A stretch of DNA of 64,000 nucleotides, from contig NC_088911.1 in assembly GCF_963576675.1 (NCBI RefSeq), forward strand, positions 77,715,256 through 77,779,255, given 5' to 3'. Shown here piece after piece: positions 8,791 to 38,912 of the stretch (position 1 is its first letter; the number at the start of each line of letters is the position of its first letter). A program made the position numbers and the translations under genes. Origin of the DNA: Euphorbia lathyris. Its lineage: Eukaryota > Streptophyta > Magnoliopsida > Malpighiales > Euphorbiaceae. Under the pieces are notes generated by a model that saw only the letters and a program-made list of their open reading frames with translations, had not been told where the DNA came from and did no database searches.

Positions 8791-8792
8791 AA

Positions 8793-10640: not shown

Positions 10641-10683
10641 CACTCCCACACTTAAACTTTTGCTAGTCCCGAGCAAAATTATC
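10641..10683 (-). other. polypurine tract region of the Athila-type element
   Basis: The reverse complement reads a GGGACTAGCAAAAGT block, then TTTAAGTGTGGGAGTG directly before the LTR start TGATAAGCCC. This purine tract next to the 3' LTR is the expected plus-strand primer site and fixes the minus orientation. Confidence 0.75.
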
Positions 10684-16391: not shown

Positions 16392-16619
16392 GCTTTAGTT
16401 TTTGATGACATTTGCAATGTAGCGCATATTCGTTTCTTTTAATTTCTCCTCTCTCTCCCTCCTCCTTCTTTTCTTTTCTCTCCCTATCTCTTTGTACAGT
16501 TTTCCTTTTTTATTAATAATATTCGGGTTGGTGGTCTGCGCTGGGGGTGCCAACCTAGTTGGGATGTCCAGTCGGCCGCCGCGTCCCATTCTTCGATTCA
16601 AAAAATATTGAAGCATTAG

Positions 16620-18150
16620 GGACGGGTATAAGCACACATGTCTTTGATCTTCGGTCTCAAGGCATTTATAAGCACAAAATTTCCTTTTTCCAAACTTATA
16701 CTAAGATTTATAAATATGAATTTAGGTTTCTGTTAACTTAATTGCTAGTCACGCCCGTGATAAGGGTGGTCTCGATCGTGACTTATAAATATTTTATTAA
16801 TTTGTGTCCGTTTAAGAGGTCTCGACCATGCCATGGGTGGACGCAACCGTGACTTTAAACTTTAGACACGTTATTTTGCTTTTAATTTATATTTTAACGT
16901 TCCTTTCATACCTCGATCGTGATAAGGGTGGTCGCAATCGTGGTCAAAAGTACCATTTTACTAATTGTGCTTCCCTTTCATACCTCGACTATGACATGGG
17001 TGGTCGTAATCGTGGCCAAAAGTTAAGATTACTATTACTTAATTAAATTAATATGAGTTAAAAATAAAATTTTAATATGGGAAAGAAAAATAGTACATTC
17101 ATCCTCTATTGACTTAAATCAACATGTATTATGACTATAGTTTCCTTAAAAACTTCAATTGAATTACTTAAAGTAAGATGGAATCAAATCAAGCAAAAAG
17201 TGTTAGTTTGATTAATTCCTATAAACCTAATTGAAAAATAGAAATAAGAATTATACTATCATGCATTAGCATAAAAGAAAAGAAAGATCCAAATAAAGAA
17301 TTTATTACTTATATACATTTACTCGAGACTTTTTCTTTATAAAATTATTTCGGAGATGTTTTAATAATATTCAATATTGTTGCCCTTGTAGAAATATTTA
17401 ACTATTTCTAGCATATGTAATATGTACTAAAAAAAATTTACGTAGGCGAAAATATGTATGTAAAAATAATATGACAAACATTCGTACTCAAAATAGGATA
17501 AGTGAACTATCTCCTCCTACACTTAAATTGGAGAATGTCCTCATTGTGAAAAAATTGATAATTCATAAAAGATAGAGTACGAAGTTATAAAACGAAATAA
17601 AGTAGTACTAAACAAGCATAAAATGAAAATAAAATTTAGTCCAAATAATAAGGAAAGATAAAACCTGAATGTGAAGGAGAATCCGTAAGTAAAAATATGG
17701 AGATTGTGTCGACTCAACTCCTTAGCGGTGGAAATATGATAATGACCGATGACGAGTGGAGTTATGTTCCTTACGCAAATGATTGATGTGTTCATCTACC
17801 TCATCGATGCTTAAGTTCGTTTGTCTATTGTTGGCATTTATTTGCGCCAAAAACTTGTTGTTTGCTTGTTGCGGGAATGGCTCTAATAACCGTATACTTG
17901 ATCCAAAACCCATTGCCAACCCACAACTTCATCTACATTGTCCCCGACGTCCTCATGTGGTGCCTCATCTTCGTGCCTTTCTTCATCCTCACCAACATCT
18001 GCATCCTCATCCTCTTCCTCTTGAATACCTTGCCCATGTGAACTCGAAGTACCAATATCGGAAAATAATCATCATAAGGAAGTGATTGAAACTGCTCCAA
18101 ACTACCTGTAGCATCCAAAACAATACTCGTAATCAAAGTACCCATAGGAA
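16620..18150. other. non-coding remnant of the Athila-type interior
   Basis: No domain is recognisable between the LINE duplication and the ORF1-like remnant. A four-copy repeat lies at 16740-17040 and is listed separately. The rest is AT-rich sequence with many stops on both strands. It occupies the place where protease, RT and integrase should be. Confidence 0.55.
16740..17040. repeat. four diverged copies of a GATCGTGA...GGGTGGTCGCAATCGTG unit
   Basis: Copies start near 16745, 16810, 16910 and 16980, each roughly 45-65 bp. Each has a TCGATCGTGA- or TCGACYATGA-like left half, GGGTGG in the middle and a CAATCGTG- or CAACCGTG-like right half, so each unit is itself a loose inverted repeat (TCACGATCGAG against GATCGTGA). 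They lie in the interior of the Athila-type element. Confidence 0.65.
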
Positions 18151-18179
18151 CCTGCTTATTGGTTGAAATGGAGGCTCGA

Positions 18180-18660
18180 TTTAAATTTGTCAAAAATCAT
18201 CCCAATGCTATCTACCACAAAACCCTTTTAAAAATGCAATCGAAAACGAACAAATCCCGATGTCGAACCTTCTACCCTTCAACATGCCCAAAAATAGAAT
18301 AGGATAAAAATATATGAAAATAGAAATTACAATGATCCTTAATGAACTTGCTAGAAGTGTTCTTGGGATTAAATTCATCCAAATTCGTCAAATATTGCCA
18401 AACCAGATTGGTTTGAAAATTGTTTAGGCTTATCATAAAAAAAATTTGCGTAGGAAAGCCAAACCAATAACCTATCTCCTCATACACAATTTTCATAAAT
18501 TTTACCTAAATCCCTAAATGCAATCCTCTCATTCTTTTTAGCATAGGAAAGAGTAATCAAAAGTCAATAATGTCTGTTTCATAAAAATGCTTCTACCACT
18601 TCCCTTTCTCATCTGAAATAATGTCGAATGGATCTATATTCAACATGCAAACGATTGTTA
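18180..18660 (-). pseudogene. Athila ORF1-like remnant
   Basis: The minus-strand translation gives EIGYWFGFPTQIFF, then LTNLDEFNPKNTSSKFIKDH, then FLSYSIFGHVEG. The pattern GFP, FNPKNTSSKFI, HR(V/I)LSYSIFG is that of the ATHILA ORF-1 family of gag-like proteins. Stops and frame changes flank the best block (18272-18496), so it is dead. It supports the Athila assignment made from the primer-binding site. No protease or polymerase follows it. Confidence 0.65.
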
Positions 18661-18954
18661 GAGGTGGAGGAAACTTTGTGAGTAACCTTTTTAGTGTATA
18701 AAATTTCGGACTTTATGAGAGAAAAAGATAGAAAAATGGAGGATTAGGTTATGGAGTTTATGTTTGGGGAAAAAGATGAATAGTAAAAAGGTGTATTGAA
18801 AATCAAAAATTAATATATAGGAAGAAAAAAAGTGTGTTGGATAGGTGAAAAATTGGTATAAACTAAAGGTGATTTGATATGGAAGAAGAAAAAGTATTTG
18901 AATGAGAGAAGACAATGGAAAAAGATCAAATTTAAGCAATTTTTTTGCCGAAAA

Positions 18955-20200
18955 TCGAAAATCTCGACTGAGATTTTTTAAAATCTCGATCGCGATAGAG
19001 ATTCTCATTGAGAAATAAATTCCTGCTTAAGTTTCTGACTTGCTGTTTCTGTAGAGATATTGATAATCTCTACAGGGATTTTTGTGCTGTTAGGCCAAAA
19101 ACTTGTATTTTTACATATTCAACTTATAAAAACTATTTCTTCTTGCAATAATGTTCCTGTAATGATATTTTAAACCTGTAAAAACTAAAAAACAAAACTA
19201 AAAATTAAATAAAAAGTTAGCCTTAAGGGCTTTCCTAAACTAAGAGTTATAAAATATATAATTACATTAACATGGAACATATACACAACCACAAAAATTG
19301 AAAGATGTGCAAACAAAAATATAGAAACATATTTACAGAGAATAACATTCTAAATACAACAAAACAAATCTAATCTTCATCTTCATTAATTGAAAATTCC
19401 TCGTGCTTGAGCCTTGTTTATTTACATGAATTGTGTACTGTCTTTCTTTTGAAGAAAGAAACCAAGGACCAAGACGAAATAGTTAATATTCATGTTTGAC
19501 AAATCATTCGTTCTCCAAGAACATGAAATGAAGGACGGAGAATGGTTAATAATTCTAATATACAACAAATAAAATTTCCAAATCCAATTTTCTTGTTCTT
19601 CGAACGGGAAGTAGATATCAACCTTCTATTTAATGTTTGTGAAGAATCCACAATATTACCTTGAAAGAATTTTTGGTGTTTAAAACTGATGAATTAAAAC
19701 AAAGATTTCAGAAATTCTAAGAATTAAAATTGTAAGTTTGAAAAATATGTCAAGTTTTTAATTTGTAAGTTTCTAACCAAAAATCGTGACTATTTAAAAA
19801 TGAAAAGGTGTCTTTGGTGAAAAATTAAAATTAAAATTCGAAATTAATGCATAAGAGAAAAAGGGAAAGAGGAGAAAATAAACTCACCAGCGCAGAAATA
19901 ATACGTGTCGTGGTCGAGATTCTGGGAATCTCGGTCGCGATATGCTTTGCCCACTGGCAAAGACATGCGCGCTGGACCTCCCTAAATCTCTATAGAGATT
20001 ATCAAAATCTCTACATGAGCAGAAACTTACTAACGACTTTAAAACAAGAATCTCAGTTGAGATTTTAATAATCTCTGCTGAGATTTTACTCTAAGGATGA
20101 AAAATAAAAATCTCTGTTGAGATTTTGATAATCTCTGCATGAGCAGAAATTTATAAAACTTCAAACAAAAGTCACTGTAGAGACTTTTTTTTTTTAATTT
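18955..20200. repeat. recurrent hairpin motif GAGATT...AATCTC in the Athila-type element
   Basis: At least six copies of an imperfect inverted repeat, GAGATTnTnnnAATCTC, often followed by GGTCGCG or CTGC, occur at about 18961, 19042, 19915, 19986, 20050 and 20108. The same motif occurs twice in each LTR (near 9870, 9960, 22337 and 22425). No protein-coding sense is apparent. Confidence 0.7.
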
Positions 20201-21231
20201 CTATACAAACAGAAACTTTAATTTTTTTTTTAAATCTAAAGACACTTGTTCTAATTAATTACAAATAGTTAAGATACATAACAATGTTTTTGGTATCTTT
20301 CAATAATCAAAAATCATTATTAATCTAAGTAAACTAAAGACTAATGTGTAAACTAAACTAACTATGAAATGTAAAAATCAAAATACGAAAAACTAGAAAC
20401 TAAAAATGTGATAATCCTTAAGAATTCCCAAGGAGAATCAAAATCATGGACAAAATCAATTACTTGGATCGGATTTAAATAATGGTCTCATCCATTTTAA
20501 CTTACCTGGAAACAATCAATCGGGAATTGAAAAGTAAAACTTTATCCCCAACTTCGAATTTATTTTTTTTAAGCGTTTTCTCAATTTAAGGATCTAGTGA
20601 TTCCGGTTAAATGCACGAACTTCTAGTTCTGCGCATGAACAGGAACTACGCGCATGAACTGAAACTTTCAAAATTATGTTAAAAGTAGACAATTCCTTCC
20701 TAGTGGATAAAATAATTTCAATGATTGTATTCCTCATTCCTACTTTCTGATATATCTGTCTGAAAAGAGTTGATTTGCTATTTCTTAGAAAGATAAATGT
20801 AGGTGTTTAACGAAATGATATGATAAAAGAAGAAATTATTTAGTTTTAATGTACGATTTGAATAAAATTTTTGCAAAGAGATATGATGTTTTGGTGAAGG
20901 GTTAAGTTTATAGAAAAAAGTTAAAGGTGTTTGGAAATAGATTATTCGAATTTCTCTTCCATGATGTATCTGCATGCTGAATTTCTTTTCTGTAGACTTC
21001 TTTTGTGAATTTGTACTGATGATCAAATCTCCTGTTCATCTTTGAGAAAACTTGGATTTTTTTTTATCTACAAACATCTAAATGCAAACGTTAATTAACA
21101 ACGAGGATTTAGTCCTAATGACCATCCTCAATAAAAAAACTATGAAATAAATTTATACATAAATTAAAAATAAGTCTATAAACCAAGATTCGGAATAAAA
21201 TAAAACAGTAATTAAAAATCAAATATCAACA

Positions 21232-21254
21232 CCGTTACCCGGCAACGGCGCCAA
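21232..21254 (-). other. primer-binding site of the Athila-type element
   Basis: On the minus strand, five bases after the 5' LTR end, the sequence reads TTGGCGCCGTTGCCGGGTAA. It is complementary to the 3' end of plant tRNA-Asp, as is usual for Athila and Tat elements. It confirms minus orientation. Confidence 0.8.
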
Positions 21255-21259
21255 AAACT

Positions 21260-22721
21260 TGTTAGGCGAATTCTGCAAGTACACGGTTTCGCTTATAGTA
21301 ATAAAATATCGATCCCACAAAGAACGTATGATAATTTGATTAGAACCTATTGTCTTGATTACATTCGTTTTTTCAAGGTTTATAGGAAATCGTTAATGGT
21401 TTCAAATGGTTTAAATTAGTTTCTAATCCTAATTTTGGTTATAGTTAATATTGCAATTTATAGCAATTATGTTTAGGTTAAAATAGAATTCAAGACTTGT
21501 TTACGCAAAGCAAGAAAGCAACTTATAACTTTGATCAGATTATTAAGATGTAACAATTTATCTAATAATGCAACTGCTGGGCTTCGAACTGCAGACAATC
21601 TTTCTACGGTCGGAACAGATTGCTACCTTAATCAAATTGGTGTTCTATGTTTGATAAGCCGAGCTATCGATCATATCAACCATAAATCCTATATTCTTTT
21701 AAGTGTTCAACAAAGTTTCCATTGAAATATATTTTGTGTAAAAGGGTTTTATTGAAAACACAAGTTTATTATTTTGAAGAACATTTGTTAGAACAGATTT
21801 CAAAATAACAACAGTAAACATAAATTGAATTGAAAAGATACATTATTAATGAGCTATGAATCGTCACAAGTTAACAGAGAATAAGAAATATGGATAGCAT
21901 TTTAACTAATTTGAGTTCTAGGTTGTCAATCCTTTGCTCAAACTTCGTAGGTTTGTCAGACCCTGGGGCACTTCCGCCGCTAATTCTTCTCACTGAATCC
22001 TCGAAATAGAGATCGTTGAATCCACTATCAGAGCGTAAACTCAACTTCGAACAAAACTCGAACTCTAAACGACAACTATAATAACTACATATTGTATCTC
22101 AAACTATTTACACAACTTGTAACTTTATAACAAGTTTGTGTAAAAAAACTAACATAAATTAGAAACATTCAACTGAACAACATTAATTCTGAATTTCTAC
22201 ATCTATTTATAATATTCCAAAAGGTGTGTTTGAAGGGTCGTATCTGTTGGTGAAGAGTCGCTTCTATCCGGACGAACAGACGCGTTGTTTCGAATTAAAA
22301 CATGTGAAATCTGTGCAGGAAAGTTGTTGTTTCTGTCGAGATTCTTGGAATCTCGGTCGCGGCTTTGGGTTGAGGGAGAATGTTGTACGAACGCATGTTT
22401 TAAAGTCTGAAACATGCATGTCGCGATCGAGATATTAGGAATCTCGATCGCGACAGAGACTTTTGTCTATGTTCGTAGATCGTTTCACAACTCTTTGTTT
22501 CAGTCTCTGAATTGTATGTGCCTTTTAGCTTGTAAATGTGATTTCTCTCTTGTTTTTGCTCAATTTTAGCTCCTATTTGGATTTTTCCAAATAATTAAGT
22601 ACCTTGCACAATAAAAACAAATATAGACATAAAAATATTCTAAATGAATATAATTAACATGATTTTAATACAAAACTAACGTAATTATTAATGATATTTT
22701 AGGTATATTTTGGGCTTATCA
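21260..22721 (-). repeat. 5' LTR of the Athila-type element
   Basis: This 1462-bp LTR runs from TGTTAGGCG to GGGCTTATCA on the plus strand. It lacks the MITE present in its partner at 8793-10640, so it shows the empty MITE site. Confidence 0.88.
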
Positions 22722-23039
22722 CCTAAACAGTTAATAGCAATGCACATGCATAACCTTTTACGATATACTTGCCACTTGGATTGTACTCGTTGAAAAGTGA
22801 GCACGGTGATGAAGTTTGCGATGCTGTAACCAAAAGTTCATAACTCATGCTGATAGCATCGAAAACACATCACCATTCTGAATTGTTTCAATTAGATAAC
22901 AAGCCAAGTGGAAGATATATGGTAAACCTATTTCAGCATCACCCACAACAATATCATACATGCAACCAATCAGTTCAAATCAACATAACAATATATACAC
23001 TAAATAAGTGAAAGAAATCTTCCCATGAGTTGATTGACA

Positions 23040-23480
23040 ATCTCTTCAGTCAGCCTTCCCATGTACTTAAGCATTCTATTATCCCTGCAAATATTATGTT
23101 AAAATACAAAAGAATTAGATGAGTTCATAACATTTTCAACATCACGCACTATATTGCCCTAGGTTAAAAAAGATAAAGACTCAAGCTTTTCATTAGTGAA
23201 TCTACCAATAAATACAATAAAATCAGTGTATCTAAGCGAGAGATCTAACCTTTTCAACAAAAGGTCTGAAAATTAATAGATCCTTAATCCAGCTGCTGAA
23301 ATCCACATACACAAGAACAAATCAGATGAGGAAAAGATAAATTAAAGAACAATGAAACTCTAATACATCCAGGAACGAAAAAATATGGCTTACCAGTGCC
23401 GTGTTTCGATCCCACTCACTCATAGTGATTGCATGTAGAAAGCAACCATGGAGGTAGAGAGGGATGAGAGGGATGAAGAT
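23040..23480 (-). other. conserved coding-like segment in the 5' half of CACTA B (unknown product)
   Basis: This is the inverted B copy of the segment described at 2580-3180. Read on the minus strand it contains MSEWDRNTAL, then a GTAAGCC donor, a later block SSWIKDLLIFRPFVEK bounded by a TTTCAG acceptor and GTTAG donor, and YMGRLTEEIVNQ. The conserved exon-intron order argues for a real ancestral gene. I do not recognise the product. Confidence 0.4.
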
Positions 23481-24323
23481 GGCGAAACCTAAAATGGTGT
23501 TTGGAATGAGAGAGAGGGGTTTATATATGAGTTGTGAAAGGGAAGTCAAACGATTGAGCGCCTAAATTTGGTATATGTTTTAGTTGGCCGCGTAAGTGAA
23601 ATTTCATTTGCCGTTTTTTTTGTTTTCGTATACAATGACAGTCATTTATTACAAATGTCATCTGATGAGTTAGTAAATTTTAACGAAAATACGCGTTTTC
23701 TTTGGATGACAGAATTGTGTCATCGGAAGGCCACATATGAATCGAGCGCATTTTCAATTAAGCTTTTAGATGATAGAATTTTAATATACTGTCATGAAAA
23801 ATAATTAGACGATAGGAAAAAAAATCTCTGTCATGTAACTTGTGTCATGTGAAAGGGAAAATGGCATAGTGATGCTACAACTAAATAAAGGGCCATATAT
23901 CTTCTAGTGCGACTTGAATATACATATGCATCCCTCCTTGCATGCTATTCGCACATCATGCCCCCCTTGCATGTTATTCGCACATCATGCCCCTCTTGCT
24001 GGCTCTTATGTCCATCTCTTTGAGTGTTGCCTTTCGGTTCTCCTTGAAATTCCAAATCTTCTATACTATGTACCTTCCACTTGGATTGTTATCTTATAGA
24101 AAAACATTCAACATGGTGATAAGTTTATGATGTTATCACCACAAGTTTTAAACTTGTGGTGACAACATCATAAACTTCATCACCATGCTCACTTTTCAAT
24201 GAGTACAATCCAAGTGGAAGGTACATAGTAAAGGAGATTTGGACAAAAAAAAGTTAAGCAGCACACACTTGAAAACCAAGGGGAACTTAATCTTTGAGCT
24301 GTGGAACTGCTTAGTGTTTTCCC

Positions 24324-24692
24324 TCATGCCCACTTTTCATGCTTATGAGTCCATCTCCTGGCAGTTGAATCATAATCTGCCTTATTGCTGAGGTATGCTC
24401 GACAACTTCTGCTTGCCCAGGAAATGGCTCCCCAATGAAGGGTTGTATTAGCAGTGCATATATATACCGCAACATCTACAAAATGCATAGACTAATTAGA
24501 TCACAAACATGATTAAATATTTATCAAATAACTAGATAAATTATGGCAAATCTAACCGTGGTAGTGGGATAGGCAAGGCAAGAAAGGAGATGTGGAAGAG
24601 AAAGCATCCCCTGAGTAGCCACATTAAGATGATAGATCATATTCTTGAAGTAAAACTGAAAATAGGAGGATCGTTTCATTAGTGTGTGTGTT

Positions 24693-24766
<74 letters not shown>

Positions 24767-25117
24767 CAATATGATTTAGGGTCATATGTCTTAATGAGAT
24801 AAGTTGTTATTACTATTGGAGGTCTAGCTCGGAACTCCAAAGGGTAGTAGATTAAAGTTTGAAATCCACCCTCTTCATAGGGTTGTATTGGGGGCCTCTT
24901 ATCTTGACTCCCCATTGTAATATGTTTTCATCCAGAGAACATGTTAGCATTAAAGATCAGAAGAATCATTACAGGTAGAAAGATGAAATCAGGAAGAAAG
25001 AAGAAAATATGGATTGACAGTAATACCTTCGATAGCGATAAGCCACCCTGGGTTCTCCTGGTAAAATCTGCATAGGTCTAACAAGACCAGTCTCTGAACA
25101 CGTTCATAGAAAGCCAT
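24324..25117 (-). pseudogene. E2 (ubiquitin-conjugating enzyme)-like gene in CACTA A, broken copy
   Basis: Four exons are readable on the minus strand: 25027-25117, 24820-24907, 24557-24655 and 24324-24475. Exon 1 starts MAFYERVQRL and ends in ENPGWLIAIE, as in the other copies. Exon 2 has a 1-nt deletion inside the GPQY...PYEEGG block. Exon 3 reads YHLNVATQG, where E2s have HPN, and has Ser (TCT) at the catalytic Cys position. Exon 4 has another 1-nt deletion, so the final helices are read out of frame. Intron 2 has acquired a long GT/AT microsatellite. It is a pseudogene of the family whose best copy is in CACTA C. Confidence 0.8.
24681..24768. repeat. (GT)n(AT)n microsatellite
   Basis: Two GT runs alternate with two AT runs. 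The array lies in intron 2 of the broken E2-like copy of CACTA A. It creates the spurious His-Thr and Tyr-Ile repeat open frames on the minus strand. Confidence 0.95.
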
Positions 25118-25559
25118 TATACTGTGTAAGTTTTATGGGTCTGAATGTAAAGAATGTTGTAAAACTGAACGAGTAAAAAGCTTAATATTTATATAATGTT
25201 TGAGAGTGACTAAAACTATGCCATTTTCCCTTTCACATGACATAAGATACATGACATACATTTTTTTTCGTGTCGTCTGAATATTTTTCATGACAGTGTT
25301 TTAACTGTATGTCATCTGAAGGTGAAATAAAAAATGCGCTCGATTCTCATATGACATTACGATTACAGAATCTTGTCATCTAAAGAAAATGCGCGTTTTC
25401 GTTAAATTTGATGCACTCAACAGATGACACTTCTAATAAATGAATGTCATTGTATGTCGAAAATAAAAAAGCGGCAAATGAAATTTCACTTACACGGCCA
25501 TACCAAATTTTAGGCACTCTATATCATTTGACTAAAATTTCAGCTGATATATAAACCCT

Positions 25560-26075
25560 CTCTCAATCCCAAACCCCAGTTTAGGTTACGCAAGCTTCAT
25601 CCCTCTCATCCCGCTCTATCTCCATGGTTGATTTGAACATGCAATATTCACTGGGTGAGCTCGAAACATGGTACTGGCAAGCCATATTTTCTTCGTTCCT
25701 AGCTGTATTAGAGTATCATTGTTCCTTACTCTATCTTTTCCTCATCCGATTTACTTTGGTGTATGTCGATTTCAGCAGCTGGTATAATGATTTTGTGATT
25801 TTCAGACCTATCGTTGAAAGGTTTAGATCTCTCGCTTAGCTACACTGATTTTATTGTATTTAGATTCACTGCTGTAAAGCTTGGGTCTTTATCTTTTTTA
25901 ATCTAGGGCAAGACAGTGCCTGATACATTAGATGGTATGAACTCATCTGATTCCTTTTTATTTGAACACTATTTGTAGAGATAGTAAGAATGCTTCAGTA
26001 CATGGGAAGGCTGACTGAAGAGATTGTCAATCGGTTCATGCCTTTAGCATATGGGAAGATTTCTTTAACTTACTG
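25560..26075 (+). other. conserved coding-like segment in the 5' half of CACTA C (unknown product)
   Basis: This is the C copy of the segment at 2580-3180. Possible exons encode MVDLNMQYSLGELETWY, SWYNDFVIFRPIVER and YMGRLTEEIVNRFMPLAYGK. The first donor is GC (TGGCAAGCC) where A and B have GT. Joining the blocks does not give one clean frame in every copy. Identity is unknown. Confidence 0.4.
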
Positions 26076-26360
26076 AATATATATTAATGTTATGTTGGTT
26101 TGAACTGATTGGTCATGCCTTTAGAAGTGATTGTGTATGTTTGATGTACTGTTTTAGAACATAGAACTCATAGATTTAGGAAAGTAGCCTGATTTAGTAT
26201 ATATATTGTTATGTGGGTTCGAACTGAACGATTACATATATGTATGATGTTTTGGGTGATGATGAAATGATTGGTATGAACTGATTGGTTAGATATAACT
26301 GTTTAGGAAGCTAGGACTCATAGAGTTTATGTATGAATGATCATTAAGCATGTGGCTGAT

Positions 26361-26858
26361 TAGGCATACTCTAAAGCTTTGAATGTTCATTGAGATTGGC
26401 ACTACTCTTACACCTATGAGTTATACTGCTAGAAGTGATTGAGTATATGTATGTGTATGAAACATGCTTATGTATGATGTTCTGTTGATGTTTATGTTTG
26501 AGGTTCTGTATGAGTATGTGTACGATTGTTCATTTGGGCATGTAGCTTATTAATCATGCATCAAGTATTAGAGGAACATTGTAAAAGGGTCACTAAGCAT
26601 GTGGTTGATTAGGCATACTCTAAAGCTTTGAATGTTCATTGAGATTGTCACTACTCTTACACCTATGAGTTATACTGCTAGAAGTGATTGAGTATGTGTA
26701 TGTGTATGAAACATGTTTATGTATGATGTTCTGTTGATGTTTATGTTTGAGGTTCTGTATGAGTATGTGTACGATTGTTCATTTTGGCATGTAGCTTATT
26801 AATCATGCATCAAGTATTAGAGGAACATTGTAAAAGGGTCATTGAGCATGTATGAAGC
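26361..26858. repeat. 249-bp tandem duplication in CACTA C
   Basis: Two adjacent near-identical units begin with TAGGCATACTCTAAAGCTTT at 26361 and 26610. Both contain a CATTAGAG/GAACATTGTAAAAGGGTC-type tail. The high similarity suggests a recent duplication within the element. Confidence 0.85.
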
Positions 26859-27009
26859 ATGTATTAAAAGGTAAATTTAGGCTAATTGCATGTACTGATA
26901 TAGCTTGCAAATGATAAGATATCACCATACTCTTTTTTATTTGAACATGACCTATTATGATAAGTAAGGAATAAGTTGTCTTGAATAAGTAAAGAATAGA
27001 CATGCACGA

Positions 27010-27145
27010 ATAAGTTGTCTACTTGTTATAGCATGTTCACTTGAATATACATGTCTACTTGAATAAGTTGTCTACTTATTATAGCATGTTCACTTGAATA
27101 TACATGTCTACTTGAATAAGTTGTCTACTTGTTATAGCATGTTAG
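27010..27145. repeat. short tandem repeat, about 64 bp
   Basis: Two to three copies of a unit containing GAATAAGTTGTCTACTTGTT and ATAGCATGTTCACTTGAATA follow each other. They lie in the central non-coding part of CACTA C. Confidence 0.75.
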
Positions 27146-28085
27146 GCATACTCTTAAAGCTGAAAATGTTATGAACTCAACAGGCTCATTTTTATTCGAA
27201 ATGATAAGTAAGGATTCTGAATGCAATTCGTTTATGAAGCATGTATGAAGCATGTATTAAAGGGTAAATTTAGTCTAATTGCATGTACCGATATGGCTTG
27301 CAAATGATAAGATATATTTTGATTAGATAGAATATACATATACATACGAACTGAATAACAAGCTCTATATAAAGCCTTATGTATGTGCATTGGCCATACT
27401 CTTACTATGTTCCTTTCCACTCGATTTGATATCGTAACAACAACATTAAACATGTTGATAGGTTTATGATGCATTCCGCAGAAACAGAGTCCCTTGTTTT
27501 GACAGCATCATAAACCTCATTACCAAGTTTAGAGTACCACGAGTACAACCCAAGTGGAAGGAGCATTGAAAAGGGGTCAGTTTAGTCTACTTGCACATAC
27601 ATACAAACTGAATAGCAAAGCTCTACGTTATATTACAAAAGGGGGGATGAGTGTTGCCTTTCGGTTGTAATTGAAAGTCCAAAGTTCCTTAGCTGTTTTG
27701 ACTAGTGAAAAGAAATTTGGAATTGGAATGAGAACCACATTTGGATATCACATTGCCTTTCAATTCTCCTTTCACTTAGCCAAGATAGCTTAGGAGATTT
27801 GAACACCCTTCATATTCAACACAAACAGAGTCCCTTGTGGTGATAGCATCATAACCCTCATTACCAAGTGGAAGGAGCATTACAAAAGGGTCAGTTTAGG
27901 AGCACAAAGCTCTACATTATATATTAAAAAAGGGGGGGGGGGGGGAATTAAAGGTCCAAAGCTCCTTAACTATTTTGACTATAGAAAGGAAATTTGGAAT
28001 TGGAATGAGAACCACATTTGGAGCTCACATTGCCTTCCGATTCTCCTTTCTCTTAGCCAAGATAGTTTAGGAGATTTGGACACCC

Positions 28086-28802
28086 TCATATCCACTTTGC
28101 ATACTCCGCAGTCCATATCCAGGCGATCCCCTCATACTCTTCCCTATTGTTGCGGTATTGCTCAACAACTGCTTCTTGCCCAGGATATGGCTCCTCGCTG
28201 TGGGGCTGTAGAAGTAGATCATATATGTGCCACATACACTACAAAATGCATAGAATAATTAGAACAAAAATATGATTTTGTATGTTTATCAAATGAAATA
28301 GATAAATGGTTGTATTATACCGTGGCAGTGGAAAAGCGATGGTTATTAAGGATACGGGGAAGTTGAATCAACCCCTGAGGAGCCACGTTAGGATGATATA
28401 TCCTATTCCGGAACCAAAACTGAGAATAAGAGGAGAGATTTATTAGTGTATGTTTCATGTAGTTGATTATATCTTACTGATCTGAGTTAATATTATCTTG
28501 CAGGCCTGTTTGGAAAATCCAGAGGGTAGCTGATTCTGATTTCAAATACACCCCTTTCATATGGTGTGTATTGGGGGCCTTTCATCCTGATCGACCATGT
28601 GAAGAAGTTACCATCGAGAGGACCTGTACGTTATCATCCAAGAAGAATCATTAAAAATACACAGAAGAAACCAGAAAGGGTTACAGAACAACTATGGATT
28701 GACATACGTACCATTGATGGCCAGAAGCCACCCTGGGTTCTCATTGTACAACGTATTCAAGTCATCAATTATGTCTCCTAGAGTTTCAACAAGGGGATCC
28801 AT
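28086..28802 (-). CDS. E2 (ubiquitin-conjugating enzyme)-like protein without catalytic cysteine, open copy in CACTA C
   Basis: Four exons on the minus strand, 28708-28802, 28502-28586, 28321-28419 and 28086-28238, join in frame to 143 residues, the size of a minimal E2 fold. The order matches E2s: N-terminal helix (DIIDDLNTLYNENPGWLLAI), MKGPQYTPYERGVF, YPLDFPNRP, YHPNV (HPN at residues 69-71), GLIQLPRIL, then C-terminal helices ending IAWIWTAEYAKWI. E2s have Cys eight residues after HPN; here it is Gln79, so it should not form a ubiquitin thioester and could act only as a UEV-like pseudo-E2. Introns 1 and 3 are GT-AG. Intron 2 needs a GC donor (CCT/GCAAG), unusual but known. The family is inferred to be a host E2 gene captured by the transposon. 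Expression is unproven. Confidence 0.72.
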
Positions 28803-29679
28803 TGTTGGTAAGTTTTCTGGTTGTTGAAGGTATGATTCTGAATTATGATGCATATATTTATAGTGATATGATTGTGGTAAGTGAAAGGCTGTGAAAGGGG
28901 AAGGGTCATGTAATTACTACTGAGTTTAGGGTTGTGTGTAATATTAATGACCTGCTTGGCTTTTGCAGGTACCAAGACCTTTGGGATTATAGGCCTAATT
29001 ATTACTCTAATATATAGATTAACTTATGGAAGATTGGTTATTTTTTTACATGTTTTAATTCAGAAATGTATTGGTTCTTCAAGATATGGATTGACGTTAG
29101 GCACAAATGTAAACATATTATGAGTATTGGTCTCCAATAAAATTAAAATCATTGATATACATAATTTAATCTTCATATTTTAGAATGTTTCTGTGTTCAG
29201 GTATAAAAACCAAAAATTCAAACAAAGAAGAAGGCATAAAGTGACATTTTAATTTTTAAAAATGTCATCTAAACAGCAATAAAAAGACATTAAATTAATG
29301 TGTTTGTCACATGAAAAAAAATCCTTTGACATGATTGATTAAGACGTGTGTCATCTAAACAGGCTATAACGGCAGGAATTATTATACGAACTGTCATCTC
29401 AAATTAAATATGTCAATTTCCCACACGCTAACCTGACGATTTTAATTGTAAAAATGTCATTTGATGACATTAAAGGTGACGACAGTAATAAATAAGCTGC
29501 ATCGTAACAAGGGTAAAATGACAGTAAGAAAATAGGCTAATGTCATGTGTGATGACGAATCATGACAGAACCTGACCATCGTCTGAAGGTGCAATAGACG
29601 GCAGCGAGCCCCGTGATAGATTTATATCTCGCGGGACGACGGATTTTAACCGTCGTCTGAAGAGGGTTTTGGCGTAGTG

Positions 29680-29873
29680 AAGGTCATTGAAGGGGAAAGG
29701 GTAGTGCGTTTAGGGTTTTGTGAAATGATGTTAGTGTATTAATGACCTACTTTTGATTTTGCAGATATCAAGATTTGAGGATTATAGGCCTAATAATGAC
29801 TTTAAGATATGCAGATACATCAAGATCGATTTTGTTTCCCATTGGATATGTGTTGCTTATTTTTTTGATATTA
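29680..29873 (+). other. part of CACTA A 3' region, between C and D
   Basis: This 194-bp piece matches C's own 3' region near 28880-29040 and continues at 38355 after element D. It shows that D inserted into A, not into C. Confidence 0.75.
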
Positions 29874-29924
29874 CACTAGTACAGAAATAGCCTATGGCCA
29901 CGCCTTATTGGCTACGGTTATTTA

Positions 29925-30300
29925 AAAAACCGTGGCTACAGGTCATTAGAGTCGGTTATTTAAAAAACCGACTCAAATAAATATGTTATTAGGGTCGGCT
30001 TTTAAAAAAAACCGACTTTAAATGTGATTTTAAAAAATGGTCAGCGGTTGACCGATCATTGGCTTCGGTTTGGCCGGTCATTGGCTTCGGTTCTTATTGA
30101 ACTGAGGCCAATGACCCAATAATCAGCCTCGGTTTACGTTAAACCGAAGCTAATTAATCAGTAATTGGTGTCGGTTCCGCTTGAACCAACGCAAATTACT
30201 GAGTTAATTGCCGCCAATTACTTGATTAATTGGGTCGGTTCAACTGAAAACCGACGCCAATTCCTCATTAGAGTCGGTTAATAACCGACTCTAAAATCCC
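29925..30300. repeat. left subterminal hairpin array of CACTA D
   Basis: At least seven short inverted repeats occur in succession. Examples are AGTCGGTT...AACCGACT at about 29950, GGTCGGC...ACCGACT, CTTCGGTT...ACTGAGG, CCTCGGTT...AACCGAAG, GTGTCGGTT...AACC, GGTCGGTT...AACCGACG and GAGTCGGTT...AACCGACTC. Subterminal repeats in CACTA elements bind the TNPA-type protein, and these palindromes are the likely sites. Confidence 0.85.
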
Positions 30301-31080
30301 TGTTAAGCACGAAATATCGTGCTCCTCCTTTCTTCTACTCTCCTTTGCGCAACCTAGCAGCTTTCTCGTCCTTCCTCTCCTTAGCTCGGTTTGAAGTTTC
30401 ATCCACTAGTTTCGTTCGTGTTTCATTGCGGCAAAAGCAAAAGAAAAGAGGTTAGCGTGGGTTTGATTTATGGATTTTGTATTCTATCTTCTAAGTTGCT
30501 TTATGATTTTGTTTTTTTATGTCGTTTCTTATGGGTTTAATTGAGTTTACTGGTGTTCGAACTTCTGGATTCCGTTCCGGGTTAGTGTTGATTCTTCTGG
30601 ATTTTGCTGGTTTTGATTTTCTGGGTTCTGTCCATGTTCATGTTCGTTCTTTAATTTCTTGTTTCAATTTGTGTCTGAGCTTCTTGACTACTCTTCAATC
30701 TTCTTTCTAAACTAGGCGAATTTACAATCCTCATTATGTCGATGCCATTCAATATAGCATTGATTTTCTAGGGATTGCTGATAACGATAATCCAACACTG
30801 ACTCTAATAACCCCCAAATTATCAGCCACGTGGATGATATTTAACTTTTGGATTAAATCCACAGCTTTGATAATTAAGTATGATTAATTTTGATAATATA
30901 TTTTTAACACTTCCCTCTACTCCATTTATATACACAGTCACATTATATTTAACTTTTGGATGTTGAATCTGTTTTTGATGCGGTAAGATAGAGATAGATA
31001 CAATTTTGTATAAATAAGTAGAAAGAAGATGGAAGTCTATCTTATCTTGATTCCGTGAACACCGGATCTGGAACAAGGGA
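30300..31080. other. 5' non-coding region of CACTA D
   Basis: It holds a GCACGA/TCGTGC hairpin at about 30306-30321 and a pyrimidine-rich stretch (30325-30400) that looks like a leader. No convincing coding exon is seen. A promoter for the downstream plus-strand gene is plausible here but unproven. Confidence 0.4.
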
Positions 31081-31082
31081 TC

Positions 31083-32284
31083 TTACAAAATGAATGAGAT
31101 CCATAAGCACTTAACCCCCTTGTTGTGGCTGCTACTTTTAGTTGCATTTCTGCTATGCCACTGGGCATCAATTCTTCCCATTGAAAACAGTTCTTTACTA
31201 TCTTCATACCCCAATGCTGATGAATTCACAAGAGGCCCTATGAAGCATGGATTTGGGGTTCTTTGAGCATTTGCTGGAACATAACTGAAACTACTTTGTC
31301 CAAAATTCACTAAAACAACTATCTCATTATTAGCTGCAATTGTTCTTCTTATCACATATTTTATACATATATTCTAACATTGTCTTTTTCCTGAGCAAGT
31401 CAATGACTTACCAAGTTCAACTCAATTATATTAATTATTAGTTGGGGGTTTGGTATATCCGGTTTTGTTGCATAATGATATGTTTTCCACTTCATGTTTT
31501 GCTAATTTTTTAGTTTTTCCACAAATGTGTGAATCAATACAAGCTTCCTACTGACAACAAGTTATAGTTGAAGGAGACTTTGAATCCATAATTTTTTCAC
31601 TCCTATACAAGATCTCCCCAATTTGCTTGATTTCAGGAGGAAGTGATGAGAGATGAACATAAATTGAGTAAAGACCCTCAAGAATCCAGGGCTCTCTTGA
31701 GAGAAAATCATACCTTTTTGGCCTTATATTTTCTCATTCAATTGTATCTAAAAGGCTAGTTTGAGTGCAATTATGTTAAACATCCATAATCAGAGTTCAC
31801 GTTTAAGGTCGTTGTATTGTAGTTAAAGAATCTGAAAACAACTTAACTTGCAACTTGTGATGCATTGATTGCTTTCATAACCCATGTGGAGATGGTTGTT
31901 ACTACTTCCATTACGCCTCCAATGACTTTTCCCATTCTAATTTCTAAGTTTGATACCAATTTTCTTGCTTCTGACATAATGTGGTTGTGGTCAGACTTTC
32001 ATATATTTATAAGTACTGCAATGAACCCATTAATTCTTACAGCTCACATGTTCAATTCAATTATTTTACTATTACATCTTCTGTAATGTAAACATATGAA
32101 ATGGGAATTCCTCTGTTTTGCAATGAATAACTTGTACTACTTCTCCATCTATTGTGAAAAACACTTTCTTTTCCCTTGGATCATATCCACATCCAATTAC
32201 TTCGTTCTTTCTTGCCCACTCTCCTTTCTCTGATTCAAACACTAGTTTAATCCCTGCAAATAACACAAAATTATAAACAAACAA
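31083..32284 (-). pseudogene. captured SPRY-domain protein gene fragment in CACTA D
   Basis: Two minus-strand blocks encode parts of a plant SPRY-domain protein. The upstream block (about 32072-32265) reads KLVFESEKGEWARKNEVIGC then GYDPREKKVFFTIDGEVV, the core beta-strands of SPRY. The downstream block (31083-31355) reads IVVLVNFGQSSFSYVPANAQ, then NPCFIGPLVNSSALGYEDSK and ELFSMGRIDAQW, the C-terminal region. The 700 bp between may be intron. N-terminal exons are missing or unrecognisable, so it is a fragment and not a working gene. Its antisense position to the Ulp1 gene and location inside intact D termini indicate capture by the transposon. Confidence 0.75.
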
Positions 32285-32947
32285 TTATCACCTAGTTCAC
32301 TGAATCCATCCATTATCTTAATTTTGTTGGTCAACTGCTTCATACCTACTCCTAAAACATTGAAGCATGTCAAGTTTAAAGAATTATTTTGTCTCCATTT
32401 CATAATTGATGACTTAGCTATTTAGTGGACCACTTTCTCTTTAGTTTTCATTACCATTTCATCATGTATTAGGTTGGAGATTAATTCACTAATGTCATTG
32501 TCGACTTATTTTAATTAGGGCCACTGCACATGATCAATATCTTGCATTCGAGAGAAATTTCAGTATACATGTCTCACATTATCTCGTGCACCTGACTTTC
32601 TTGCCCAGCCGTCCTCATCTGCCTTCTGTTGGATCCTCCTAATGCTATGAATCAAATTAAATGATGGGTCCAAGGGGTCAAGAGACCTGAACATCAAAAT
32701 ACTACAGATTTTTTTTGAAGTTTGCCAAAAAAAGCAAATATAAGGGTGTTAGAAATCCAAAATTGACAAGTTAAGGGTGGCAAGCCGCAAAAAATTACAA
32801 ATTTAAGCGTGTGATAGGTCCAAATATAAGTCCAGGTACCAAATGGAAAAACGTCACAAGTTTAGGTATGTAATTATGTAGTAAGCCATGATTTAACAAG
32901 AAAGAAAGCTTCATAACTTTTTATCCCTATAGTGAATCCAATGATGT

Positions 32948-33138
32948 GAGGGCGAGCCTTGTTGCAACGGTAAAACGTTGTTGTCGTGTGACCAGAGGTC
33001 ACGGGTTCGAGTCTTAGGAGCGGCCTCTTGCCAATTAAATTGACAAGGGAAGGCTTGCCCCCAATACACCCTTGTGGTGGGACCCCTCCCCGGACCCTCG
33101 CTCAGCGGGGACGCGTAATGCGACCGGGCCGCCCTTTT
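32948..33138 (+). mobile_element. Au SINE (tRNA-derived)
   Basis: The 191-bp element is flanked by a perfect 17-bp duplication AGTGAATCCAATGATGT (32931-32947 and 33139-33155). It starts GAGGGCGAGCCTTG, has a pol III B box GGTTCGAGTC at 33004-33013 within GGTCACGGGTTCGAG, and ends GGGCCGCCCTTTT, all characteristic of the angiosperm Au SINE family. The intact duplication and high match suggest a fairly young insertion. It interrupts captured sequence in CACTA D. Confidence 0.95.
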
Positions 33139-33214
33139 AGTGAATCCAATGATGTCAATAAAGGTGAGATACTTACCAAAGACTATTACCAAACTTCAAC
33201 TAATTGGCAGCAAT

Positions 33215-33750
33215 TATTCTTCCACAGATAAACGCTTGAATTTCAGATGGGCTATGCACCTGATTTTTTCTTCATCAGCAGGAAAATTATCCATCAAACT
33301 CTTATCAAGATCATCCACTTTTTCAGTCGCAATGCAAGTCCTTATTAATCTATGATACATATCTCTTGTTAAAAGTTCTAAGCTCTTCAATGACTTGATG
33401 AGTTCCTCCATTCCTTCAACATCTCCTTGTACTTCCAATTAGTCCAAACAAGCGCCGATAACGCTCTCTTAAACATTTTAACTGCCTTGCATATTTGATT
33501 TCACTCTATATATCCCCTTGCCAATATATTCCAAGTACTAGCACAAGGTGTTCTTCACTCTGCACCTTTCCCTACAGCTGCTTCAGCCTTTCCCAATAAC
33601 CCCTTTTTACAATAACTGATAAGAAGGCTATTCAGTACTCGGAAGTTATAATCTGTGTCATCGGGACTCCCACTCTTCAAAGATCCTTTCAGAACCCACA
33701 AGTAACATGGCATTAGAGTCTTAGTAATTTTATAATTTGTAGAGATCAAA
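33215..33750 (-). pseudogene. captured PPR protein gene fragment in CACTA D
   Basis: The minus strand encodes the C-terminal part of a P-class pentatricopeptide repeat protein: LLISYCKKGLLGKAEAAVGK, then TPCASTWNILARGYIE with KAVKMFKRALS, then DVEGMEELIKSLKSLELLTR and DMYHRLIRTCIA, and FPADEE near the end. This order is typical of mitochondrial PPR proteins of the Arabidopsis At2g20710/At4g21705 kind. Stops and frame changes (near 33555 and 33440) make it a pseudogene. The N-terminal repeats are absent. It was captured by D together with or separately from the SPRY fragment. Confidence 0.75.
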
Positions 33751-33789
33751 ATATAAATAAACTAAAAAGGACTGAATTCATAATTGTTA

Positions 33790-34870
33790 AAGTAAAAGCA
33801 TTACTGATCCTGTATCTAAGAAGGAATTCTTTCCCAAAGCTTTATCCGCAGCTTTCTTATTGTATGATACCCCAAGTTCTTTTGACTTCTTAGTGGGACT
33901 TCGCTCTGTGAGCCTTAGCACTCCTTTTTCTTCTTTGGTAAGAACTGCAGTTAATAAAACAATCTTTCGAACATATTTCTTTTTAGTTCTCCAACTAAGC
34001 AAAAGTGGTCAATCCTAACTAGCTCAAGCTAGTGCCCGTACCATAAGTGCTGCAGTTTGAGACGCTAGATGCGCCTCATCTGGCACACATTTATACTACA
34101 GAAAGTAACTAACTATATTTAGACACAACCTATCTAATGGTTAGCTACAACTTTTTACTTCAAAGTAACAAGTAAATGGCATCCATTGGGATGCTTTTAC
34201 AAGCACTTCATTACATCTGCTAGTAAACTTAGCATGGCTGGCACAATTACAGACTACAAAATATAATAACAGAGGCCCTGAGATGCATATATTAAATATT
34301 GATCCTTTTGTCGTGTACCTCCCACTGAGTTTGCATTGAGATCCACAAAGATTGTAAAATTTGTTCTGAAACATAAAAAGCATGTCACATGTCACAAGGC
34401 CCCCATGTCCCTTCTGTTATAACAAGCTTATGTTCATTGCTGCTGCTTGCCCCTAGACAATTAGGGGAGACCTAAACAATTTTTTATTTTTATTTTTCTA
34501 TTTAGAAAAAACTGTGCATTTGCTTTGGAATCTCCATGCCAAAATAGACCAACTGGAGTATGGAGACCACATGTTCTGATGATTACCTTTAAAAAATAAA
34601 GGAAGATGCAATAGAATAGAATCTGAAATGACAAGATACTAAAGTAACTCATTTTGAGATTTAACTTTTTTGGCACTGATTGCAATAAAATAAATGTATG
34701 TGCTTGAACAATTTTCTAATGGTTGTCTGTTTTTCTGTGTAGCAAGTAGTTATTGGAAAGCTTAGTTATAGATTCAGCTTCCTAGTACTTCATCATGTAA
34801 TATCTGTAGATGTGAATAGATCTATGTGTTTTCATGCATCAACAGTTATATATAAACCTTTCCATCATCT
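33790..34870. other. unassigned interior of CACTA D
   Basis: A minus-strand open stretch at 33787-34002, with TKEEKGVLRLTERSPTKKSK, looks protein-like (lysine-rich), but I do not recognise it. It may be a third captured fragment. The remainder shows nothing definite. Confidence 0.35.
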
Positions 34871-34875
34871 TACAG

Positions 34876-36719
34876 ATTTGAAAAAGAAAAAGGATAGCAT
34901 TAATTATGAAAATGGTTATGGAGATTTACCTGTGCCAGTGCCATCAGAACATATTCAAATTCTCGGTGAAGCTAGTGGATCTTTCACACAGTGGCCAAAG
35001 AATTTGATTCTGCTTTTAGGAGATAAGGTAATAACTAATTCACATTGTTAATTAAATTTTGATAGTTTAATCATTTTATATGGTTGTGGATGTTTACTAA
35101 TATCTATTAATTAATCGGTTATTATAGGCAAGCTATTCTAAGGGGGATACAAGTAAAAAGAAACATGATCAAAGTGGAAATGAGTCGGTAATACAACCAA
35201 AAAAGTTAGATCTTAATGAGGTTGCGTTACCAAAGTTGACTAAGAAATGCAAATATATGCGGAGAATGTTGGATGAAAATCCCACACATGATATGTTTGA
35301 GATGCTTGATGACCATGTTTTTGGGAGTAAAGAAGAGATTCAGATTTTTATTGGAAGAGAAGATGTGGATCAGCTACTACATGGAGAGTGGCTCAGTACT
35401 TCAGTGTTGGAAGTGTTCATTACGTAAGATAACACTTCAACTTATTTTTGTTTCCAATTTTGAGTATTTCCTTAAATATCTATCTCTCTTATTATATATT
35501 ATTACATAGTGGTTTGAGAACTATGCACAATCGTCTTCTTGACTCTATTGGATTCATGTGCCCACATTTGATTTCGGCTACCGCGATAAATTCAAAGAAG
35601 GAAGTCGAGTGTAGGAAATACATGATAGACGCATTCATAAAATACAAAGGCAAACGTCTCATCCTTTTTCCATACCATGAAAGGTATATCTACAAACCTT
35701 CATCAACCTATTATACCTCTAATTTTATTATGTTTATACAGCATTTTCTTCGCTAAAATAGGGTGTGCTGGGATCATAGAATCGCTTAATTGTTTATTTT
35801 AAAATTATAATGTAAAAACGACATTGTATATGGTCAAAATTAGTTGCATATGCAGATTGAATAAAATCGCAATTGGTTCCACTATCTTGCTTTGCATTTT
35901 GTATGATTAATCTGAAAGGCTTCTACTTAAGAAGCAAGGGGTCTTATTATTATTCTTGTCCAGTAACTTTTGACATTTGATAGGAAATTAGAGATTGGAC
36001 CAATTTTGTGCTATGCTCGTTTTCTAGCAGCCACGTTGGATATTTTTGTGCAGTTGCAGAGTGTTACTTTAGTTTAATAAAGGGCATGTCGTGAATGAAT
36101 GTGTACCGTATTGTGATTACAAAATTAGTTATTTATGGATAAACCACTTTCATCAATACTCCAACATGAATTAATGCTCCCTTTGCCTTTAATGTAGCGC
36201 TCATTGGATTCTTCTTGTGCTATGTACGGAGAATAATGAGGTCTACATTTTTGATCCAAAAAGGACTTCGCTGAAGTTTGTAGGCAGTCCAATAAAGGAA
36301 CACATGAATAGCGCTTTCTTGGGATATCAACAGATGGAATCTAAAAGGAAGGCTAAAACACCGTTGAAATGGACTGTTGCAAAGGTACGTACCTATTAAA
36401 GTTTGTTTAGTTTGTGGTTTGTTGAGTCGAATTATATAATTGTATACAGAGTGTGGATACTTTGTAATGCGATACATGTTGGATATAATTTTGCAACACC
36501 GTGATTCTCAAGAGTTACAAAATGTAAGTTTTGTTGTATATATTTTAATTTGTATCCTTATTTATGTATATCACTTTTGGATAATGTATTTACATTTTAT
36601 CTTTTCTACTTAATAAGGTTTTTGGAAGAACTTCACCATATACCGAGGACGAGCTTAATGAGGTTTTGGATATTTGGGCATCACGGTTTATGTCCTTTTT
36701 ATGTTGCGTCATGAATTAG
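34876..36719 (+). CDS. Ulp1-type (C48) cysteine protease protein of CACTA D, partial
   Basis: Six exons are readable: 34876-35028, about 35130-35423, 35511-35680, about 36199-36384, 36452-36521 and 36619-36719. Exon 1 encodes VPVPSEHIQILGEASGSFTQ, typical of the linker before the protease in plant CACTA-borne Ulp1 proteins. The protease core follows: HWILLVL with catalytic His, VYIFDPK with Asp, ECGYFVMRYMLDII with Cys, then a C-terminal helix to TAG. Ulp1 enzymes cleave SUMO conjugates; the role in CACTA elements is unknown. Joining the exon ending WTVAK to the Cys exon with the obvious splice sites shifts the frame, so a small exon or splice site seems lost. The N-terminal transposase-like half is not seen. 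Probably decayed or partial. Confidence 0.65.
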
Positions 36720-37970
36720 GTATGTTGTAATGTAATACTGTTCTTAAGCCATTATTATTGCGAAGTTCATGTTTATATTATTATTGTTTTAATGTAATAT
36801 TTCTTATGGTAGCTACTAGCTTTAGAAGAAAATGATAGAGATGAGACTTCAGATCTCAGGTTTTCTGTTTCTGAAATATTGGGAAACAGGTTATATTTTC
36901 TTTTCCTCCAAAGTTCTGCATAAATAAATCATAGAGAGAGTGAGTTCACTGTTTGATAGCATTAGAGTTTTCCTTTTAGTCGGATGGAGCTGGTAGATAC
37001 ATAACAAAAAAAAGCAATTTACAAAAGTGAATGAATATAAACATGTCTAGATACATCACTTTGTCCAATATTAATTGTTGTTATCCCTCTTAATTTGGCT
37101 GCCTCTTCACAATTTATCACATGGCTATGTCACCTCCATGGTTGCTGAAATATGATGGTTATGGTGTAATTTTCTTCAAAGGATTCTGTAGTATCGACTC
37201 TTTTTTTCGGGTATAGATCGTCTGAGAATTGACTGGGGGCAAGTAGTATTAGAATTTAGGGTCTGCTGAAGATTATTTGCACGTAATTGAAGCATTAAGG
37301 TATATGTATTGACTTGTCCGTAGAAGTTATTGTCACATGAATTTATTTTTGTATTAAATAATTGCATCTCTATGTTTAGCTTGAAATGCACGATGCTTTA
37401 TAGTCTTTGTCGTTTTCTTTTGTTTATCAATTAGCGTTTGGAATGCTGATTATACTTCAATTTTTGTTTTGGGTCAGGTTATGGAGAAAACTGAAAAGCG
37501 TGTTAGGATCAAGAGAAGGTATTCACTATTCAGATTCCAAAATTAAAGTTTGATTTATGGACAGGGAAATACTGCTCATGCGGGAAAATATATGAAGTTG
37601 AGTTAGATTAGTGACTTATCAAAAGAAACAAAGAAATATAGCTATTTTGACATTAGCATGTCTAGAGTAGTATGATAGAGAACTAGTATATCTTAGTTTT
37701 TTTTTTTTTTTTGTGTTTACATTAATATGCAGTTGGTTAAATACTTGAAAATACTGTGAATATTGAATCAATATTTCTTGATTAATTAATTACCTATATT
37801 TGTGTACATTTTTATTCATTTTGCATTTAATTTCAGTCATACATCAGGATTAATTTTTGTTACAGTAAATGACTGAGCATAACAAATCTTGTTTACCGTT
37901 AATTACGGTAATACAAAAAAAACAGAGTAGGTTTAATTTGAATCTGCTGATTTTAAATTGTTAAAAACAA
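36720..37970. other. 3' non-coding region of CACTA D
   Basis: No complete gene is present. Short coding-like pieces (ALEENDRDETSDLRFSVSEI at about 36820-36890 and MEKTEKRVRIKRR at about 37480) may be remnants of another exon or gene. The rest is AT-rich. Confidence 0.35.
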
Positions 37971-37974
37971 TAAC

Positions 37975-38330
37975 ATTAGCCACGGTTGCAAAACAACCGA
38001 CTCTAGTGATTAAAGCATTGGAGTCTGTTGTTTCCACAACCGACTCCAATGCTTTTATCATTAGCCACGGTTCTTTTACAACCGACTTTAATGATCAGGG
38101 CATTGGAGTGGGTTGTTATGAAAGACTGTGGCTAAAGACCCCCTTTAGCCACGGTTTTTCATAACAATCATGGCTAAAACATAAAACATTAGAGTCGGTT
38201 ACATGTAAAAACCGACCCTAATGCCCTTTTGGTCACGGTCGAACAACCGTGGTTAAAGATTCCAAGCATTTGCCACGCCTCTTTTGGTCACGGTCGTGAA
38301 ACCGTGGCTAATGAGGGTAAACGACCGTGG
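37975..38330. repeat. right subterminal hairpin array of CACTA D
   Basis: It mirrors the left array: repeated CCACGGTT...AACCGAC, GTCGGTT...AACCGAC and CACGGTC...ACCGTGG units run up to the terminal repeat. The paired arrays define D as a compact, internally consistent CACTA family. Confidence 0.85.
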
Positions 38331-38912
38331 CCATAGGCCATTTCTGTACTAGTGTTACATTCAAAAATTTATTTGTACAAATGTAAATAGATTATGAGCA
38401 TTGGTCTCCAATTAATTTAAAACCATTGACATACAGAATTTCATGTTCATTTGAGTATGTTTCATTATTCAGGCAAAAATCAGAAATTCATTCAAATATG
38501 AAAGCAAAGAGCCACATTCAATTAAAAAAATATCATCTAAACAACAATAGGAAGACACAAAAATAAACAAAGTCTAATTATTGAGGAATAAACTACAACG
38601 ACAGCAATTATTATACAAACTATCATTGCAAATACCAAAAAGCCAATTTTCCATATATCTCGTTGACGTTTTTAATTATCAGGATGTCATGAAATGACCG
38701 TATAGGTGACGGTAATAATAAATAAGTTATCATCATAACACGCATAATATGCTAACCTACAAATAGGCTTATGTCATGTGACGTGCATTCACATGACAAA
38801 ATCCAACCGTCGTCTGAAGGTCCATCAGACAGCAGCGAGTCCCGTGGCAGTTTTATTTCTTATGGACGACGGTTTTGAACCGTCGTCTGAAAGGCTTTTC
38901 GGCGTAGTGTCT

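Follow-up and report, generated by a model that had tools for sequence, protein, structure and literature searches.

A ubiquitin-conjugating-enzyme-like gene without its catalytic cysteine, most likely a decaying captured gene, in CACTA transposons of Euphorbia lathyris

A 64,000-nucleotide stretch of the Euphorbia lathyris genome (the window; contig NC_088911.1, positions 77,715,256 to 77,779,255) contains three copies of a gene with a ubiquitin-conjugating enzyme (E2) domain, each situated in a transposon with CACTA-type ends and each lacking the catalytic cysteine. Most probably these derive from a cysteine-less E2-like gene that was transduplicated, spread as CACTA cargo and is now a decaying passenger.

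Gene structure of the three E2-like copies

The copy from which the analysis starts (c3) is composed of four minus-strand exons. Two further copies (c1 and c2) are identified by tblastn and blastn searches of the window and are located in two sister elements. Coordinates are as follows.

28712..28802, minus strand: exon 1 of c3, with the ATG at 28802 and a GT donor at 28711-28710
28502..28623, minus strand: exon 2 of c3, preceded by AG at 28625-28624 and ending before a GC dinucleotide
28321..28419, minus strand: exon 3 of c3, which encodes HPN and, where the catalytic Cys would lie, Gln (CAA)
28086..28238, minus strand: exon 4 of c3, encoding the C-terminal part, with the stop
6770..7495, plus strand: E2-like copy c1, with Tyr at the Cys site, three stops and one frameshift, and lacking the intron 1 acceptor AG and the intron 2 donor GT
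24324..25087, minus strand: E2-like copy c2, with Ser at the Cys site, two frameshifts, no intron 1 acceptor AG and its first ATG at ~25117

A reading of this DNA made from the letters alone (the sequence-only reading) had described four minus-strand exons joining in frame to a product of E2 plan with Gln in place of Cys, and this description is borne out; it had missed c1 and c2. The joined exons of c3 encode 154 aa with no stops, the product matches the Pfam UQ_con profile (E 7.7e-21; 74.6 bits, the cut-off being 27), and its alignment with E2s shows HPN to be kept and Gln, codon CAA, to stand where the catalytic Cys would be. The junction originally given for intron 1 (28708/28586) is wrong, however; with 28712/28623 the E2-like segment GPLDGNFFTWSIRMKGP is restored and the product is lengthened from the earlier 143 aa, which scored 68.8 bits (4.9e-19). 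The exon 2 start at 28586 is therefore rejected, as it drops this segment and scores lower in Pfam. The best solved-structure matches to c3 are UBE2D2 chains (1.7e-18, among the best 60 of 258 matched sequences), and a profile of the three copies likewise matches UBE2D2 (2.1e-19) and 'Ubiquitin-conjugating enzyme E2 8' (4x57_A; 2.3e-18). A large protein collection searched with the E2-like queries yielded no homologues at E 0.001, and the queries had words in common with just 6 and 329 of its proteins; this blank says little because plant proteins seem scarce in that collection.

The GC donor that had been assigned to intron 2 of c3 survives only in part. There is no GT donor in c3: the sister copy c2 has a GT (GTAATA) 6 nt further on, such that its exon would end in PPI, and the aligned place in c3 contains none. 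The GC site itself (CCT/GCAAGA) is poor, matching five of nine donor consensus positions, and 543 of the 3866 GC dinucleotides that the window has on its two strands equal or beat its score. This crude nine-position score discriminates weakly, the other donors of the E2-like genes scoring 5–7. At the remaining consensus positions GC donors show a closer fit than GT donors (PMC2490688). Should the GC site be unused, the frame reads CCT GCA AGA TAA and ends in a stop. The site could be usable at a low level, although c3 probably makes no full-length protein, its intron 2 donor having been lost.

CACTA elements and their nesting

That c3 lies within a CACTA transposon, as had been proposed, is confirmed by an element with CACTA-type ends surrounding it. 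This element is one of four relevant to the region.

25214..29679, minus strand: element 2, CACTA-type, carrying c3, with ends CACTACGCC (29679) and AACTATGCC (25214)
2206..38909, unstranded: element 1, the outermost CACTA of the E2-carrying family, carrying c2, with duplication TCT; broken by elements 2 and 3 and another CACTA
4111..23871, unstranded: element 3, a CACTA of the E2-carrying family, carrying c1, with duplication ATG; broken by an insert at ~4360-6184 and an LTR retrotransposon at 8793-22714
29874..38354, unstranded: a CACTA of another family, with CACTAGTACAG ends and duplication TTA, nested in element 1

The three CACTACGCC ends are at 4111 (+), 29679 (−) and 38909 (−), and their partners, CACTATGCC or variants of it, are at 23871 (−), 25214 (+, AACTATGCC) and 2206 (+, CACTATACT). 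Elements 1 and 3 have both the CACTA ends and a 3-bp duplication (TCT and ATG, respectively). Element 2 has both ends with one terminal base changed, and its flanks (AAG versus ~AAA) form an imperfect duplication. When these flanks are joined, the resulting promoter can be aligned with that of c1, which is unbroken; element 2, together with c3, therefore inserted into the c2 promoter. Without their inserts the elements are 3996, 4466 and 4015 bases long, element 2 being the one of 4.47 kb and its sisters ~4.0 kb each.

Three E2-like copies inside ~22 kb might also represent an unremarkable group of clustered host E2 pseudogenes that transposons have entered, none of the copies being cargo. The reading direction of each copy, however, runs inward from a CACTA end of one and the same type, within an element bounded by matching ends; elements 1 and 3 have matching 3-bp duplications, and omission of element 2 yields an uninterrupted promoter. 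On the element ends and the empty site of element 2 a host pseudogene cluster is rejected, and we regard it as extremely improbable.

The organization favored here is a CACTA family, with an own length of ~4.0–4.5 kb, that probably bears a transduplicated E2-like gene near one end, together with the promoter region of that gene and its three introns. No transposase is recognized: only two stop-to-stop frames of at least 95 aa touch the elements' own sequence, and neither matches Pfam. One (27803-28258, +) is antisense to exon 4 and lies inside the elements' own sequence, and the other (38748-39038, +) crosses the end of element 1. The elements may have been mobilized in trans by an autonomous relative, none of which is seen in the window, with the E2-like gene carried along as a passenger and c3 probably its least decayed copy.

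Several other features accompany these elements. At the far end of each (2206-3136, 22965-23871 and 25214-26113) there is, by eye, a TATA-like box with exon-like pieces of a second gene read inward, which looks decayed in all three copies. Judging from its flanks, element 1 seems to be inserted in a copia-like polyprotein gene. The LTR retrotransposon in element 3 (8793-22714) has long repeats that are 94.4% identical and contains a LINE-like reverse transcriptase frame (12912-15149; RVT_1 5.5e-28), and the other insert in element 3 has many near-repeats of type TACGCGAGGCGTA at 4600-5100 (by eye). The CACTA of the other family carries a decayed Ulp1/C48-like gene at ~35128-36720 (+), with a Peptidase_C48 match of 1.4e-4 (22.2 bits versus 20.7) when exons are joined by eye; the stretch around its catalytic Cys appears to be deleted. 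A further reverse transcriptase frame at 61844-62596 (RVT_1 3.9e-23) probably belongs to an LTR retrotransposon.

Loss of the cysteine and divergence among copies

All three copies score above the UQ_con cut-off, c3 at 74.6 bits and the other two at 49.8 and 45.3 (c1, 3.4e-13, with stops and gaps as X; c2, 8.4e-12, with gaps as X). None has the Cys after HPN that is characteristic of active E2s, the codons at this site being CAA (Gln) in c3, TAT (Tyr) in c1 and TCT (Ser) in c2. Loss of the Cys before the copies split would be the simplest reading, because TAT is the codon closest to all three and is one step from a Cys codon; the ancestral cargo would then be an E2-like gene with its Cys already lost or being lost. 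At the acceptor position of intron 1, neither c1 nor c2 has a counterpart of the AG of c3. Damage is present in every copy, c3 having no stops but lacking a GT donor for intron 2. A frameshift common to c1 and c2 in an automatic alignment is rejected by eye, since the one-base deletions of the two copies fit better at separate positions, and these deletions are placed by hand for the codon comparison.

None of the three copies shows the properties of a functional E2 variant, namely an open, spliceable and constrained gene. By counting, with gap and stop codons excluded, dN/dS is 0.99 for c3-c1 (bootstrap 0.60–1.70; 149 of 155 codons used), 0.97 for c3-c2 (0.61–1.50; 151 codons) and 1.33 for c1-c2 (0.80–2.32; 147 codons); the ranges are wide, all span 1 and, with three copies, a constraint near 0.6 is still compatible with them. 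Neutral evolution with random stops, the outcome that the sequence-only reading had set as contradicting its proposal, is what is observed, as far as three copies can show.

Exons and introns diverge by 22.2 versus 18.2% in c3-c1, 32.5 versus 24.9% in c3-c2 and 25.3 versus 13.7% in c1-c2. With the hand-set exon alignment the exon excess has p values of 0.16, 0.055 and 0.0011, respectively, and is significant for c1-c2 only, where 113 of 460 exon sites differ as compared to 29 of 213 intron sites; for transversions alone p is 0.075. The upstream stretch diverges by 22.7% (c3-c1), 34.6% (c3-c2) and 17.8% (c1-c2), and in the c3 pairs the exons are about equal to it. These exon differences fit an absence of selection, as judged from the alignments of the copies. 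In c1-c2 synonymous sites are raised as well, and diversifying selection is set aside as the cause of the exon excess; composition is a possible, unproven cause.

The 154 codons of c3 free of stops, together with the best Pfam score of the three, count against a reading of pure decay. The c3 frame remains stop-free in 22–29% of simulations with 29 random substitutions and in 5–11% of those with 58 (4000 runs each), a range chosen because 58 changes (45 nonsynonymous and 13 synonymous) divide c3 from the state shared by c1 and c2 and the share on the c3 side is not fixed. Over 15 to 75 substitutions the stop-free fraction is 3–52%, and as the simulation includes substitutions only, without indels and splice sites, neutral survival is overstated. 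One stop-free copy among three is not remarkable.

The copies were compared with four human E2s including UBE2D2, to which they are 24–34% identical. The majority sequence of the copies matches UBE2D2 at 20 of 25 positions on which the four agree, versus four of 34 positions specific to UBE2D2 (p 1.2e-7), in a count that omits gapped and no-majority positions, the Cys position being one of those omitted; with the omitted positions scored as lost the values are 20 of 30 versus 4 of 55 (p 1.2e-8). For c3 alone they are 18 of 30 versus 9 of 55 (p 6.7e-5). The loop that follows the active site has a conserved tryptophan, which in active E2s is situated next to the RING-E3 contact, and in the same alignment it is absent from all three copies. 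The E2 fold appears from the retained universal residues to have been under past selection, possibly inside the transposon, although a source in some E2 family outside the four would bias the comparison in the same direction. Because the universal residues are largely kept despite an identity of 24–34%, the gene would have diverged while it was a genuine E2-fold gene, whether in the host or in the transposon, and before the copies separated. With either source, the E2-like gene seems to have diverged from canonical E2s with its fold kept, and the constraint to have gone later.

The retention of universal residues bears on the proposal that the pseudo-E2 is kept as a working decoy, binding E3s or an E2 partner and hindering the ubiquitination of transposase or silencing factors. 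Such a role is consistent with that retention, with an E2 domain in all three copies and a Cys in none, and with the open frame of c3, but not with dN/dS values near 1, the damage to every copy (in c3 at intron 2) or the missing tryptophan, and we consider it quite improbable. Of the earlier proposal, a transposon-borne E2-type gene without its catalytic Cys stands, and its retention as a working decoy is not supported.

The decaying-passenger explanation has a version in which capture was late and the donor was a divergent, catalytically dead host E2-like gene, such that the fold constraint was the host's and none of it the transposon's. We lean slightly towards this version. Three features agree with it: universal residues that are mostly retained although identity to the four distant E2s is low, copies that differ as if unselected, and introns and a promoter region of the kind that capture of genomic DNA would bring along. 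On the other side, the protein collection yielded no match at E 0.001, and a living E2 family outside the four compared is an equally possible source. Alternatively, the CACTA family may have carried a Cys-less E2 long enough for its identity to canonical E2s to fall to ~30%, with its fold selected inside the transposon and the protein acting in trans on ubiquitination, by analogy to the way that Ulp1-carrying VANDALs may profit from a captured SUMO-protease domain; live members would then exist elsewhere in the genome, the copies here being dead. We view this as very unlikely.

Relation to known systems

Host E2 variants such as UEV1/MMS2 and COP10 have the E2 fold without the active-site Cys and are conserved genes with known partners. 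Compared by description only, the gene in these elements resembles them in fold and in lacking the Cys, but it is a transposon passenger of low identity whereas they are conserved host genes.

The capture of gene pieces by CACTA elements is well documented (PMC8903248, PMC8978399 and PMC13317346), and Pack-CACTA or transduplicated fragments in CACTA elements also appear in PMC1947982; captured pieces usually end up as pseudogenes (PMC13317346). The elements described here are similar to Pack-CACTAs in having CACTA ends around a putatively captured gene piece of host type that is present more than once; by Pfam the E2 domain is that of a host-type gene. They differ in carrying a complete E2-like gene that includes its introns and promoter region and lacks the Cys in the three copies seen. 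An E2 carried by a CACTA element was not seen in the literature searched, most subscription papers lying outside it. Two candidates are rejected as captures: PMC8495827 concerns a Gypsy insertion into a ubiquitin-conjugating enzyme gene, and PMC4429473 concerns PHO2. Within the literature covered, the Cys-less E2 cargo is new and CACTA gene capture is of an already known kind. The E2 case is real, once corrected, and most likely ordinary, that of a decaying captured gene. What is unusual is its cargo, a Cys-less E2 in all three copies that bears traces of an earlier constraint on the fold.

Ubiquitin- and SUMO-pathway domains in plant DNA transposons have precedents in the same literature. Ulp1 domains occur in KIU/Kaonashi VANDAL elements, which are MULEs (PMC13317346), a Peptidase_C48 domain occurs in CACTA elements (PMC8978399), and the Ulp1 domain of these non-TIR MULEs is described as strongly conserved in eudicots (PMC13317346). 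The E2-carrying elements are like these in being plant DNA transposons with a domain of this pathway, but the Ulp1 domain of those MULEs is described as conserved, whereas the E2 cargo has no detected constraint among three copies.

An open frame in one transposon copy can look meaningful until its sister copies are compared, and c3 is a clear example. Should there be live copies, plant DNA transposons would carry, in addition to Ulp1, a further ubiquitin/SUMO-pathway activity in the form of a pseudo-E2.
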